From Orenia metallireducens (GTDB lineage Bacteria > Bacillota > Halanaerobiia > Halobacteroidales > Halobacteroidaceae), in the NCBI RefSeq assembly GCF_003001995.1, contig NZ_PVNB01000008.1, positions 1-64,000 on the forward strand: DNA of 64,000 nt, given 5' to 3'. Below the pieces are notes generated by a model. The model was not told the origin of the DNA. It did no database searches and was given only the letters and a program-made list of their open reading frames with translations. The stretch's first letter is position 1, and each line of letters opens with the position of its first letter. The position numbers were made by a program, and so were the translations under genes. Shown piece after piece: positions 5,851 through 21,503 of this stretch.

Positions 5851-6166
5851 TTTACTTTAGTGTTAAGTACTTTATTATTGAAAATAGCTAGAGGTAAATT
5901 TATTATTTTTATCGTAAATATGGTTTTTAATACTAATTATTAATAGCTGTGCTAAAATTTTTCGAAAGATTAGTAATTATGCAGGGGAAATTGGACTTTA
6001 TCTAGAAATAATATAGGAAATATAGTTTTATATGAAAAAAATATTAAGAAGTTAGTATTATTTATATTAATTATCACTAAGATTGAGTGATTACTTGTAT
6101 AAGTTTTATTATAGATACTATATTATGAACCTTTAAATTAATTAAAAGATACGGGGGCAACTAATT
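5851..6166. other. Gene-free AT-rich upstream region of the diguanylate cyclase
   Basis: Very AT-rich DNA with no reading frame or clear palindrome. It presumably contains the promoter of the cyclase gene, but I could not pick a convincing -35/-10 pair. The SD of the next gene (ACGGGGG) is at about 6151. Confidence 0.4.
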
Positions 6167-8248
6167 ATGGGAGAGATAAATTTATTTGTTCAGGCTATTT
6201 TACAACTTTCTATCTTTATATCTATCACATATATTGTAATTAATCTAAGACCTCTTTCTAAGGGAATGATTACAAATATAAGTACTAAAGATAAGTTATT
6301 CTTTAATCTGATTATAATAGTAATTATAGTGGTGGGAACTTATCTTTTTAAAGGGTATAATATAGGGTTACATTATTTAGCTATCTTATTGATGGGAAGA
6401 ATTTTTGGTTCTCCTTATGGTCTTATAAATGGAGTTATAATGGCTATATTGAGTTATTATTTAAAAGCTAATCTCTATCCTCTGGGGTTAGAGAGTGTAT
6501 TATTAGGAATAGTTATAGATAAATATCATATAATAGGATTAGATAATATTGAAAGTAAATTAAAAAGATTAGTAATAAGTTTACTTTTAGCAACGGTTTT
6601 AATCTTTCAGGACAATTTTATCTTATCTTTATTCTTAAATACTATACTATTTTGGTCTATATTATCAGTTATAGATGTCCATCAACGGAGAATAAAGTTC
6701 ATCTGTAATAAAGAAAGAGAATTAAATGATATTAATCTAACTTGTAATAGTCTAAGTGGCTTACATGATATAAATAAAAAGCTCAGTTCTAAATTTACTT
6801 TAGAGGATACTTATGAAGCTTTAATTGAGATTGCTTGCCAAAAGTTAAATGTAAAAGTAGGAGGCTTATTAGCTCAATCTGAAGAGGAAGATTCTTATTT
6901 AGATCTTAAATCATTAAAGGGTTTAGATAAGGACTTATATAGAGAGTATTGGAAGCGGGTTAAGATTAAAAAAGGTGAAGAATATTTTGGTTACCACTTA
7001 ACTGAAGGGGATATAGTGATAATTAACTCTTTAGTTAAGGACAATCATTCTGATACGAAATTGTTTGTTGAAGATGGTTTTAATTCAATGTTATTAGCTC
7101 CAATCTTTGTTGAGGGTGAGCTTGCAGCTATTATCTTCTTCTTAGATCAGCAAGAGTCCTTCTTTAATAATTTTCATAAGGTTGCAATTAGAACAGTAGT
7201 GGAACAGTCACCTTTGGCCATTGAAAAAGCAGAGTTTTTTGAGAAGATGGAGAGAAATATGGCTGGTTTATCTACATTACAACGAACAAGCAATACCATT
7301 AACTCTACTTTAAATTTAGATAAGGTAATTGATCTAACTGTTGATGTTGTTTTGGGAACTATGGGGGTATCAATGGCAGGACTGTTCTTATTGGATAAGC
7401 ATGATGAAAAGCTAAAATTGGTTTCATCTATAGGAGTTCCAACCAATAAAGAGACTAAAAAGTTAATCAAATTAGCAGAAAAGACGGCTAGTAGTCTAAT
7501 TGAAAGTAATAGTGTCTTAATTACTGATAAAGTAAGTGAAGATATAAAGAATCAATTTGAAACTTTAAATTTAATATCTGCTGTCTGCATTCCATTAAAG
7601 GTAAGGGATAATATGCTTGGGGCGATTACTGCAGCACAGTTAGACTTTCCAAGAAACTTTAAAGAGGCAGATAAGAGTTTTTTAACTACCTTAGCAAATC
7701 AGATTGCTATTGCTATTGAGAATGCTACTATGTACAAACAGATGGAGGATTTGGCTACTAGAGATGGTTTGACTAAGTTATATAATCACAGTTATTTTCA
7801 GGATGCTTTAAGAGAAGAGATAGCCGAAGCTAAAGGCTCTAACTCTGATTTATCTTTGATGATGATGGATATTGATAACTTTAAAGAGTTTAATGATACT
7901 TATGGTCATCAAGTTGGTGATAGAGTATTAAAATGTTTAGCACGATTGTTGGAAGAAGAAGCAAGAGAGTTAGATATAGTTGCTAGATATGGTGGAGAGG
8001 AGTTTGCAATTATTCTACCTAAAACCGGTGGTGCTAGTGTATTGGCTATTGGAGAAAGATTAAATGATCTGGTTAGAAATATGATAGTCGAATATGATAA
8101 TCTAAGGTTAAAGGTGACTATCAGTATTGGAGCTGCTTGCTATCAAGCAGGATTATCGCAAAAAGAGCTGATTAGTGCTGCTGATACTGCCTTATATCAA
8201 GCTAAAAGAAGGGGGAAGGATCAAACCTGCTTAGCTGAATATGAATAG
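6167..8248 (+). CDS. Membrane diguanylate cyclase with two GAF domains and GGDEF
   Basis: A 693-residue signalling enzyme that should make cyclic di-GMP from two GTP. About residues 1-175 form five or six membrane helices with the GRIFGSPYGLINGVIM pattern of 5TM sensor modules. Two GAF domains follow (about 212-355 and 370-520), then a GGDEF domain (about 530-690). The active-site loop is GGEEF at 609-613 and the inhibitory I-site RELD is at 600-603, five residues upstream, so both catalysis and product inhibition look intact. There is no EAL domain. The signal bound by the membrane or GAF parts is unknown. The next gene starts about 40 bases downstream. Confidence 0.92.
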   Translation: MGEINLFVQAILQLSIFISITYIVINLRPLSKGMITNISTKDKLFFNLIIIVIIVVGTYLFKGYNIGLHYLAILLMGRIFGSPYGLINGVIMAILSYYLKANLYPLGLESVLLGIVIDKYHIIGLDNIESKLKRLVISLLLATVLIFQDNFILSLFLNTILFWSILSVIDVHQRRIKFICNKERELNDINLTCNSLSGLHDINKKLSSKFTLEDTYEALIEIACQKLNVKVGGLLAQSEEEDSYLDLKSLKGLDKDLYREYWKRVKIKKGEEYFGYHLTEGDIVIINSLVKDNHSDTKLFVEDGFNSMLLAPIFVEGELAAIIFFLDQQESFFNNFHKVAIRTVVEQSPLAIEKAEFFEKMERNMAGLSTLQRTSNTINSTLNLDKVIDLTVDVVLGTMGVSMAGLFLLDKHDEKLKLVSSIGVPTNKETKKLIKLAEKTASSLIESNSVLITDKVSEDIKNQFETLNLISAVCIPLKVRDNMLGAITAAQLDFPRNFKEADKSFLTTLANQIAIAIENATMYKQMEDLATRDGLTKLYNHSYFQDALREEIAEAKGSNSDLSLMMMDIDNFKEFNDTYGHQVGDRVLKCLARLLEEEARELDIVARYGGEEFAIILPKTGGASVLAIGERLNDLVRNMIVEYDNLRLKVTISIGAACYQAGLSQKELISAADTALYQAKRRGKDQTCLAEYE

Positions 8249-17425: not shown

Positions 17426-18157
17426 TCAGTTGACTTGATAGATTACCCTCAATTCAGTTTTAAAAGATTCCTCTGTGGCTTCTTTTATCCTCTCAAGATT
17501 AATCTCTTCTTGGTAGGTAGAGATATTACTTGGTTGAAGCTCCTTTAATTGATAAATCCCAACTAGCTTAAAAGAAGAGAGTTTTAAAAGGACATTTAAC
17601 TTAGCTGTGCTATTATTTAAGGCTTCTTGAAGTAGCTGATTTTGATATTTTAGAGGGTCTTTAAAGGTATAGTAAGCTCTATCAATTTTATAAGAGAAAT
17701 CATCAGGCTGATTATAAGTTACTCTGCTATTAACTGGATTGAGATCTTGAATATTATCTACTAGCTTATTTAAGTTGTCTATTAGATTATTATCTAATTT
17801 AATCTTTAAGTAAGTAGTACCTCTGTAAATCTCTTTAGAGAAGTGATTAGCCTTATCTAAATAGCTAACTATCTCAATTTCACCTTGGATGATCTCTATA
17901 TTATTAGAAAAGAGCTCTTGGAGTTTACTAGTTAACTTCTTTATTTCTTCTCTAAACTGATGATTTAGCCTTGATTTATTACTACCTTCACCATTTATCT
18001 CTAATCTGATTATAGCCTGGTCAGGTCTTAGAGTGATTTCAGCTGAGCCTATAGTGGAGATATTCTTAAAATCTGTTTCTGCTTCAAGAGATGGTGTTAT
18101 GATTAGGTTTAATAGGATTATTAATGTCAAAATTATAATTTTTTTAATCTGTCTCAC
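17426..18157 (-). CDS. Exported SIMPL-domain (DUF541) protein
   Basis: A 243-residue protein with a signal peptide (MRQIKKIIILTLIILLNLI...., cleavage near LEA) and a SIMPL domain over most of the mature part. The start of the domain ISTIGSAEITLRPDQAIIRLEI is characteristic (G-x-A-E-x-x-x-x-P-D-x-A). Members are periplasmic or surface proteins of poorly known function that form large oligomeric rings. The reading frame is clear. It is transcribed alone and converges with deoD. Confidence 0.82.
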   Translation of the reverse strand: MRQIKKIIILTLIILLNLIITPSLEAETDFKNISTIGSAEITLRPDQAIIRLEINGEGSNKSRLNHQFREEIKKLTSKLQELFSNNIEIIQGEIEIVSYLDKANHFSKEIYRGTTYLKIKLDNNLIDNLNKLVDNIQDLNPVNSRVTYNQPDDFSYKIDRAYYTFKDPLKYQNQLLQEALNNSTAKLNVLLKLSSFKLVGIYQLKELQPSNISTYQEEINLERIKEATEESFKTELRVIYQVN

Positions 18158-18476: not shown

Positions 18477-20159
18477 ATGACGACTAAAGTAGTAGTAATT
18501 GGTGCTGTAGCAGCTGGGGCAAGTGCAGCAACTAAGGCTAGAAGAGAGGGTGAGTATGCTGAGATTATTGTCTTTGAAAAAGGACCCTACGCCTCTTTTG
18601 CTAACTGTGGATTGCCATATTATGTAGGTGGGACTATTAAAGAGAGGAAGAATCTATTTCAGGTAAGTAATGAATACTTCCATAAACGCTTTAATATAGA
18701 TTTAAGGGTCAACCATGAAGTAATCAAGATTAATCGGGAAGAAAAATGTGTAGAGGTGATCGATCACCAGACTGGGGAGAGCTTTAAGGAAGCTTATGAC
18801 AAATTGATTGTAGCTGTTGGTGGAGAGGCTGTTAAACCACCGATAAAAGGAATTGATAGTAGAAAGATATTTAGTCTGTTAACCGTTCCAGATGCCGATA
18901 AGATTATGGAAGAGTTGAAGAATAAACCAGAAGATGCTGTAGTAGTAGGTGGTGGATACATAGGGGTTGAGATTGCTGAGGAGTTACAGCGCAGAGGGCT
19001 AAAGGTTACTTTAGTTGAGATGATGGATCAGATTATAGCTCCTTTAGATAAGGAGATGACGATGCCATTAGTCCAACATCTAGAAGAGAAAGGGATAGAG
19101 GTTATCTTAAATAATGGAGTGACAGAGTTTCAAGAAGAAGGAGATCTAATAAAGGTTATTCTACAGAGTCGAGATGAGATTGATGCAGATTTTTTAATCT
19201 TAGCTGCTGGAGTAAGGCCGAGATTAGAATTGGTTAAAGATGCAGGGCTTAGGGTCAGTGAAGTAGGAGTTGTTGTCAATGAATTTATGCAAACAAGTGA
19301 CCCAGATATCTATGCAGCAGGAGATATAGTTGAGAGTACTCATCTAGTTACTGGAGAGAAGGTTAGATTTGCTTTAGCTGGACCTGCTAATAAGCAAGGT
19401 AGAATTGCGGGAGCTCATGCTGTTGGGAATACTAAGAAGAAGTTCAAGGGGGTTTTAGGAACTAGTATTGTCAAGGTCTGTGATTTTACTGCTGCCAGCA
19501 CTGGGTTGAATGAGAAGGAGTGCCAAAAACATAAGATTAGCTATTATCCAGTCTATCTTAATAAAGGAAACCATGCTGGATATTACCCTGGGTCTGAAAT
19601 TTTAACAATCAAGCTACTTGTTGAAGAACAGACTGGCAAACTATTGGGAGCTCAGTGTATAGGTAGACAGGGTGTAGATAAGCAGATTGATGTCTTTGCC
19701 ACTGCTTTACAGGCCAAGATGACTGTAGAGGATTTAGAGGACTTAGATTTAGCTTATGCCCCACCTTATTCTTCGGCAAAGGGACCAGTAGTTATGAGTG
19801 GGATGATTGCATCTAATCATTTACGCTATGAAACTGATTTAATCAGCCCCCATGATTTAAAGCTGGCCTTAGAAGCTGGAAAAGATATTCAGTTACTAGA
19901 TGTTAGAACAGCTAGAGAGTATAAGCAAGGTTATATAGGTGAGGCTAAACATATTCCTCTTAATAGTCTAAGGGAGAGGATAGGAGAGCTAGATCCAGCT
20001 AAGTATACTGTTGTCTACTGTAGAAAGGGATATCGAGGCTATTTGGCTTATAAGATTCTAGTTGCCAATGGTTTTGATACTGTAGAGAACTTAACTGGTG
20101 GTATCTTAGCTTGGAACCTCTGCAGTGAAGAGAAGGAACTTTTAATTCAAAATCTATAA
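18477..20159 (+). CDS. CoA-disulfide reductase fused to rhodanese (CoADR-RHD)
   Basis: A 560-residue flavoprotein. The N-terminal half is an FAD/NAD(P)H-dependent disulfide reductase of the CoADR/Nox/Npsr group: FAD motif VVIGAVAAGASAA near residue 6, the single redox cysteine Cys44 in SFANCGLPYYVGG, and a second dinucleotide motif VVGGGYIGVE. The C-terminal 100 residues are a rhodanese domain with catalytic Cys515 in YCRKGYRG. Known fusions reduce CoA disulfide, CoA persulfide or polysulfide. Here the first glycine motif reads GAVAAG rather than GGVAGG. The following 4Fe-4S and rhodanese genes support a role in sulfane sulfur handling. SD GGAGGGAG. Confidence 0.9.
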   Translation: MTTKVVVIGAVAAGASAATKARREGEYAEIIVFEKGPYASFANCGLPYYVGGTIKERKNLFQVSNEYFHKRFNIDLRVNHEVIKINREEKCVEVIDHQTGESFKEAYDKLIVAVGGEAVKPPIKGIDSRKIFSLLTVPDADKIMEELKNKPEDAVVVGGGYIGVEIAEELQRRGLKVTLVEMMDQIIAPLDKEMTMPLVQHLEEKGIEVILNNGVTEFQEEGDLIKVILQSRDEIDADFLILAAGVRPRLELVKDAGLRVSEVGVVVNEFMQTSDPDIYAAGDIVESTHLVTGEKVRFALAGPANKQGRIAGAHAVGNTKKKFKGVLGTSIVKVCDFTAASTGLNEKECQKHKISYYPVYLNKGNHAGYYPGSEILTIKLLVEEQTGKLLGAQCIGRQGVDKQIDVFATALQAKMTVEDLEDLDLAYAPPYSSAKGPVVMSGMIASNHLRYETDLISPHDLKLALEAGKDIQLLDVRTAREYKQGYIGEAKHIPLNSLRERIGELDPAKYTVVYCRKGYRGYLAYKILVANGFDTVENLTGGILAWNLCSEEKELLIQNL

Positions 20160-20181: not shown

Positions 20182-20210
20182 TTGACAAATTCCTCCCAAT
20201 AAGTTATATT
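20182..20210 (+). promoter_or_regulatory. Promoter of the 4Fe-4S membrane protein gene
   Basis: TTGACA (20182-20187), a 17-base spacer and TATATT (20205-20210). It lies just after the CoADR-rhodanese gene, with a G/C-tract palindrome directly downstream of the -10. Confidence 0.82.
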
Positions 20211-20216
20211 ATAACC

Positions 20217-20239
20217 ATACCCCCTACCTGAGGGGGTTA
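20217..20239 (+). promoter_or_regulatory. Probable operator of CsoR/CstR type
   Basis: ATACCCCCT and AGGGGGTTA face each other across ACCTG, starting 6 bases after the -10 box, so a bound protein would block the start of transcription. A tract of C residues facing a tract of G residues within AT-rich ends is the style of site used by the DUF156 family (CsoR, RcnR, FrmR, CstR). The sulfur-related neighbours favour a persulfide sensor of CstR type. No such regulator gene is in the window. Confidence 0.55.
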
Positions 20240-20344: not shown

Positions 20345-21010
20345 ATGAGACAGAAAGGTTTTTTAGGGTTTGTAGGAAAGATAAGTTGGACTGTGATTGT
20401 AGCTTTTTTAATATTGGGTTGGCATTATCCGATTATAGGTAGTGTGGCTTTAATTTGTATGATAGCACCACCACTTTTGGCAGTATTAAAGGGTGGTCGA
20501 GTCTGGTGTGGAACTGCCTGTCCTCGAGGGAGCTTTAATGATAATATCTTAGCTAAAGTCAGCCGGAGTGTAAATATTCCAAGAGTTTTTAGAACTGTAT
20601 TCTTTAGGGTAGCTTTTTTTATCTTTTTGGTTTATAATTTTATAGATGGAATAATTCAGGCTAAGGGGGACTTAATTAAGATTGGTTATGTATTTTATAA
20701 GATTATCTTTATCACCACTGCAATTACTATTTTATTAGGGATTATTTTTAATGAGAGGACTTGGTGTTCTTTCTGTCCAATGGGATCTCTATCAGCATTA
20801 ATTACTAAAGTTAAGCGTAGATTAAGAACAAGACCGAAGAGAATAGTTGTAGATAGAGATAAATGTGTAGATTGTAAACTCTGTGAGAAGGAATGTCCAA
20901 TGGGTTTAAAGCCGTATGACTTTACTGGTGATAATGATAAGGATTTAGATTGTATCCACTGCCAAGAGTGTGTTTATAAGTGTCCAGTAAATGCTTTAGA
21001 TTATAAATAA
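20345..21010 (+). CDS. Membrane 4Fe-4S ferredoxin-type protein (NapH/CcoG-like)
   Basis: A 221-residue membrane electron-transfer protein. There are about four hydrophobic helices; two cysteine motifs of the polyferredoxin type lie at membrane edges (WCGTACPRGSFND and WCSFCPMGSLSAL, the C-x3-CP pattern), and a C-terminal domain carries two 4Fe-4S clusters (CVDCKLCEKECPMG and CIHCQECVYKCP). This matches the NapH/NosR/YccM group that passes electrons across or along the membrane. The partner is unknown. GTG at 20336 overlaps the SD (GGGAG), so ATG 20345 is used. Its promoter, operator and neighbours suggest a link to sulfur redox chemistry. Confidence 0.82.
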   Translation: MRQKGFLGFVGKISWTVIVAFLILGWHYPIIGSVALICMIAPPLLAVLKGGRVWCGTACPRGSFNDNILAKVSRSVNIPRVFRTVFFRVAFFIFLVYNFIDGIIQAKGDLIKIGYVFYKIIFITTAITILLGIIFNERTWCSFCPMGSLSALITKVKRRLRTRPKRIVVDRDKCVDCKLCEKECPMGLKPYDFTGDNDKDLDCIHCQECVYKCPVNALDYK

Positions 21011-21063: not shown

Positions 21064-21093
21064 TTGACAGATAATATACTTTTTTGTTACAAT
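21064..21093 (+). promoter_or_regulatory. Promoter of the free rhodanese gene
   Basis: TTGACA (21064-21069), an 18-base spacer and TACAAT (21088-21093), about 80 bases before the TTG start. The G/C-tract operator found at 20217 is not repeated here. Confidence 0.75.
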
Positions 21094-21173: not shown

Positions 21174-21503
21174 TTGCCTTTTGATATTTTATTTGGTAGT
21201 GAAGTAAAGAAGATATCTCCTAAAGAGGTAGAGGAGAGGTTAAGAAAAGGTGATATACAGATTTTAGATGTAAGATCAGAGGAAGAATATAAACAAGGAC
21301 ATATTCCTAACTCTATTAATATCCCTTTAAGTGAATTAGAGAATAGATTAAATGAGCTAGATAGGAGCAAAGAGATAATTACTGTATGTGCTTCAGGCGT
21401 AAGAAGTGATAAGGCTGCTAGAAGATTAATGGAGATGAGATTTGATATTGTTAAGAATATGTCTGGTGGTATGATGGCTTGGGAGGGTAAGGTTGTTAAA
21501 TAA
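21174..21503 (+). CDS. Single-domain rhodanese-like sulfurtransferase
   Basis: A 109-residue rhodanese domain that carries sulfur as a cysteine persulfide. The conserved LDVRSEEEYKQGHIPNS region is present and the catalytic Cys72 is in the loop CASGVRS, followed by GGMMAW. It starts at TTG, supported by AAGGAGTGAT upstream. It resembles the rhodanese end of the CoADR fusion 1 kb upstream (LDVR..EYKQG.I, GG...AW), so the two may share sulfur substrates. A minus-strand frame over the same bases is a shadow. Confidence 0.9.
   Translation: MPFDILFGSEVKKISPKEVEERLRKGDIQILDVRSEEEYKQGHIPNSINIPLSELENRLNELDRSKEIITVCASGVRSDKAARRLMEMRFDIVKNMSGGMMAWEGKVVK

Follow-up and report, generated by a model that had tools for sequence, protein, structure and literature searches.

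Regulatory question at the locus

The window, that is, the whole stretch of 64,000 nucleotides of Orenia metallireducens DNA analyzed here, carries a C-tract/G-tract palindrome directly behind the promoter of a gene for a membrane iron-sulfur protein, which raises the questions of which regulator reads this element and whether the sulfur-transfer genes on both sides belong to the same response. The features considered are the following:

18477 to 20159, plus strand: CoA-disulfide-reductase/rhodanese fusion (CoADR-rhodanese), the upstream neighbor, for which no operator of its own was found
20182 to 20187, plus strand: -35 hexamer TTGACA, read from the sequence and kept in all aligned relatives
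20205 to 20210, plus strand: -10 hexamer TATATT, with a 17-bp spacer to the -35 hexamer, read from the sequence, its position being kept in relatives
20217 to 20239, plus strand: palindrome ATACCCCCT-ACCTG-AGGGGGTTA, the predicted operator, over the expected transcription start, read from the sequence and found upstream of homologues, with the same element before the trxA-regulator operon
20345 to 21010, plus strand: 221-aa NapH-like membrane 4Fe-4S protein, the probable target gene, with two CX3CP motifs (PF12801, Fer4_5) and two C-terminal 4Fe-4S motifs
21064 to 21093, plus strand: promoter-like TTGACA-18-TACAAT before the rhodanese gene, without a palindrome, read from the sequence
21174 to 21503, plus strand: single-domain rhodanese, the downstream neighbor

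A promoter-coupled palindrome of the DUF156 operator type

The promoter and the palindrome had been described in a first-pass annotation of this DNA, and the hexamers, the 17-bp spacer and the 6-base gap were all found to be exact in the sequence. The full palindrome, ATACCCCCTACCTGAGGGGGTTA, with CCCCC...GGGGG tracts at 20220-20236, begins 6 bases past the -10 hexamer, so that the expected transcription start coincides with its left edge, and it lies about 105 bp upstream of the gene for the 4Fe-4S protein. Even with 3 mismatches allowed, it is the sole match in the window (0.03 expected in shuffled sequence), and its core, ACCCCCT-N5-AGGGGGT, has a single exact occurrence in the 4.1-Mb genome. 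It has been reported that DUF156 operators are pseudo-palindromes with a run of at least four C and at least four G located at a promoter (PMC10318464), and the window palindrome shows each of these properties. A terminator reading was ruled out by the absence of a U-run 3' of the hairpin.

The genome contains 28 palindromes of the form ACCCC-N0-16-GGGGT, and among the 26 examined (L008 and L009 were left out) only two stand directly behind a promoter, namely the window site and a site (G000:C15:69713) before an operon composed of trxA and a CstR-like regulator gene, where TTGACA-18-TATAAT is followed by AGACCCCTTGGGGAGGGGTAAAA. Two weak candidate sites (C1:190557 and C31:24514) were discarded, with no plausible gene behind them.

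The genome (G000) encodes four DUF156 proteins, three of which are of the CsoR type (Tyr-Cys, His, Cys pattern), while the fourth carries CstR-type residues and is encoded behind trxA (G000:C15:69032-69307); the search for a DUF156 gene with CstR or CsoR cysteines proposed in the first-pass annotation was thus successful, and the cognate candidate has the same element before its own operon. In this regulator the first of the two sensing cysteines follows Asp (Asp-Cys) rather than Tyr, Asn replaces the CsoR His, as in CstR, and the second site is a CxC motif (NLCDC). Among PDB entries it matches 7mq1 best, with DC...NLCDC aligned to DC...NLTEC, and PMC9774590 cites the companion entry 7MQ2 as CstR. 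In the sister family, the CsoR His position is occupied by His or Tyr instead of Asn. In the free tree the CstR-like protein falls outside the CstR group, but a joint clade with the CstRs is not rejected when a Lactiplantibacillus protein is included (p-AU 0.61), the value dropping to 0.04 when it is left out. Judging from its residues and targets, the regulator would work like CstR, and it is a candidate member of the CstR group. The family otherwise has CxC, and in the regulator of one relative (G003, L079) Phe takes the place of the second CstR-type Cys, with the Cys two residues earlier retained.

Altogether, the palindrome is probably the operator of a thiol-type DUF156 repressor, most likely the CstR-like protein encoded behind trxA, and we infer both its binding and its inducer (persulfide). 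The DUF156-type operator of the first-pass annotation is supported by a CstR-like candidate in the same genome and by the recurrence of the element before the trxA operon and before sulfur and thiol-redox genes.

Conservation and recurrence in the order of the host

The palindrome is present behind the promoter of 4Fe-4S homologues in G001, G002, G003, G009 and G011, and also of the more remote homologues of G008 and G010, at about 4-12 bp from the -10 hexamer and with variable spacer and loop. The retention of the arms against this variation in promoter spacer and loop indicates that the element is under constraint. Within 200 bp upstream, the palindrome was found at 8 of the 10 homologues recovered by protein search and at none of the 160 windows taken elsewhere in these loci, a contrast for which the binomial P is only indicative, the sequences being related. 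The site is absent at the homologue in G005 and at one G004 copy and present at further copies in G004, G006 and G012.

The order promoter, palindrome, trxA and regulator gene is kept in eight genomes (G000-G007). Moreover, a promoter-coupled search of 14 genomes, in which the genes behind each site were read, placed the long element not only before trxA but also before clusters of small-ferredoxin, trxA and rhodanese genes (G008, G010 and G012), a cluster that encodes a YgaP-like membrane protein (G008) and Hdr-looking iron-sulfur operons (G008 and G012), and a thioredoxin-rhodanese fusion (G006, L155 387-1079) lies behind an operator of the long class. A few promoter-coupled matches were off the sulfur theme (an alcohol dehydrogenase in G010 and a LuxR/MalT-like gene). 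The expectation that the palindrome would recur before sulfur or metal genes was therefore borne out across the order by trxA, rhodanese, thioredoxin-rhodanese and ferredoxin genes. Additionally, C/G palindromes were observed behind the promoters of rex and of the adjacent Hdr-looking iron-sulfur operon (L140 and L149, in G008 and G012).

The system outside the order

In other classes of Bacillota, a short canonical DUF156 operator was found at 9 of 20 4Fe-4S homologues, compared with 4 of 337 background windows, although two of these nine are near-identical relatives with a weaker site. In the two genomes checked (G060 and the genome of L035), a short operator is followed by a DUF156 gene and then by trxA. 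Outside the order, then, the short form stands at both the 4Fe-4S gene and the regulator operon, and inside it the long form does so; this parallel shift is the strongest evidence for control of the gene by the thioredoxin-linked DUF156 protein.

Pairs of DUF156 and thioredoxin genes are widespread in Bacillota (L196, L197, L199, L206, L219, L221, L227, L228 and L171), also on a Lactiplantibacillus plasmid. The residue at the CsoR His position varies among the regulators of these pairs, and the inducer of several regulators outside the order is less certain because they have His at this position.

Alternative explanations for the palindrome

CsoR is known to bind C/G-tract palindromes, and with three CsoR-type proteins in the genome one of them could bind the window site in response to copper, the 4Fe-4S protein then taking part in copper defense. 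Derepression by copper had been put forward as an alternative in the first-pass annotation, and the only DUF156 protein of G060 has CsoR-type residues, with a short operator at the 4Fe-4S homologue of that genome. The CsoR copper operators resemble the window site in belonging to the same protein family and in being C-tract/G-tract palindromes just behind a promoter, but they differ in length and in the genes behind them. In the host and its relatives, the palindromes of copA and copZ-csoR are ATACCCC-N1-3-GGGGTAT-like, span 11 from outer C to outer G in 5 of 5 cases and never take the long form; further copper sites of the host genome, at two copA genes and at the C15 csoR operon, are likewise short. 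In contrast, the sulfur-class sites (n = 27) span 12-21, mostly 14-17 (Mann-Whitney P = 0.0004 against the copper class), a strong pattern rather than a blind test, given that the sites were already known when they were classed by their downstream gene. With a span of 17, the window site belongs to the long class and not to the short palindromes of the copper type, and it is the long form that precedes thioredoxin, rhodanese and CstR-like operons. Copper control is thus unlikely, given the separate and shorter palindrome class at copper genes in these genomes.

It is also conceivable that the palindrome acts as RNA, in the form of a 5'-terminal hairpin that stabilizes the mRNA or tunes translation or attenuation, considering that transcription would begin at its left edge and that the RNA of five sites folds at -8 to -14 kcal/mol. 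However, any palindromic operator at +1 yields such a hairpin, and the window hairpin is not followed by a U-run. The C-tract is the left arm and the G-tract the right arm at every site, including those found from protein homology alone, with swapped pairs absent. Closely similar palindromes at copper genes are, moreover, known DUF156 operator types, and we regard an RNA role as very improbable. Besides CstR, persulfide-sensing families include BigR/SqrR, FisR and MarR types, and the window site is longer than known CstR sites, so that a thiol or metal sensor from outside DUF156 might be considered. Against such a sensor, the element precedes the operon of the DUF156 gene itself in eight genomes, and in two genomes outside the order the 4Fe-4S gene and the DUF156-trxA operon each have a short DUF156-type operator, which leaves this as the least probable of the alternatives.

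Comparison with known CstR systems and proposed mechanism

The predicted thiol-type DUF156 system is similar to the known CstR regulons (the Staphylococcus cst operon, the Enterococcus faecalis cst-like operon with CoAPR and Bacillus licheniformis YrkD) in its DUF156 repressor with two sensing cysteines and without the CsoR-type His, in the C/G palindrome at the promoter, and in having sulfur-transfer or persulfide-handling genes and the operon of the repressor itself as targets. It differs in that the targets in O. metallireducens are thioredoxin and a NapH-like iron-sulfur protein and in that a further Cys (CxC) is present in the regulator. The operators differ as well, since the window site reads ATACC-N13-GGTTA, whereas the staphylococcal CstR sites, taken from the cst intergenic regions of plasmid records, read ATACC-N6-GGTAT; the window site is thus longer and lacks the CstR spacing, which is shared by the sulfane-sulfur sensor ScCsoR of S. 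coelicolor (PMC7533328). Besides, E. faecalis CstR controls a CoADR-rhodanese (PMC9405070), while the CoADR-rhodanese of the window is without an operator. What appears to be new here is the longer operator of this order compared with staphylococcal CstR sites, the extra Cys of the regulator and the uncharacterized NapH-like target. No description of such a regulon was found in the literature searched, which missed most subscription papers.

In the resting state, the repressor would sit over the expected transcription start and block the gene of the 4Fe-4S membrane protein. Sulfane sulfur (persulfide or polysulfide) or general thiol stress would then modify or cross-link the repressor cysteines and cause its release; in CstR, the cysteines are linked by a per- or polysulfide (PMC9774590). 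Release would allow the joint production of thioredoxin, additional repressor and the NapH-like electron carrier and, in relatives, also of rhodanese, the thioredoxin-rhodanese fusion and small ferredoxins, products that would help to reduce persulfides and disulfides. A role of the NapH-like protein as electron carrier for this reduction is plausible because of its two CX3CP membrane motifs and two 4Fe-4S motifs.

Taken together, the element and the CstR-like regulator point to a small sulfur-stress regulon. More tentatively, a thioredoxin-linked branch of DUF156, widespread in Bacillota, might sense sulfane sulfur or disulfide stress and control a NapH-like protein supplying thioredoxin and rhodanese proteins with electrons, an undescribed membrane-coupled route of persulfide reduction for which this order would use a three-cysteine sensor and an operator about half a helical turn longer; we see this broader reading as possible but somewhat doubtful. 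Such a system would give an uncharacterized family of membrane iron-sulfur proteins a regulatory context in thiol or sulfane-sulfur stress, and would represent a CstR-like regulon of strict anaerobes that is based on thioredoxin instead of sulfide oxidation. It would also offer a case for studying site choice in the CsoR family, with paralogous repressors in one genome whose operators are seemingly distinguished mainly by spacing.

The 4Fe-4S protein and its neighbors

The 221-aa protein resembles the NapH/MauN-type ferredoxin membrane proteins (TIGR02163) in its CX3CP motifs, which sit in the membrane part, and in its two C-terminal 4Fe-4S motifs, but it is shorter and scores only 49.8 bits against TIGR02163, far under the cut-off of 213. 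No Nap genes were present among the neighbors read around the 4Fe-4S gene. The matches of a PDB profile search were essentially limited to ferredoxin-type stretches, and the predicted structure is poor (mean pLDDT 53).

The first-pass annotation had the 4Fe-4S protein working with the flanking CoADR-rhodanese and rhodanese, a proposal that was not supported: no palindrome occurs upstream of either gene, so that operator control of both was rejected, and the CoADR-rhodanese was seen to adjoin the 4Fe-4S gene within the genus only. In G002 and G005, a gene for a thioredoxin-like CSACQ protein directly follows the 4Fe-4S gene (L160, reverse complement, 6132-6494; L164, 6446-6805), and the window has no such gene at this place. 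Upstream of the CoADR-rhodanese, the minus strand of the window carries a gene for a probably secreted protein (17426-18157), and similar genes precede CoADR in G001 and G002.
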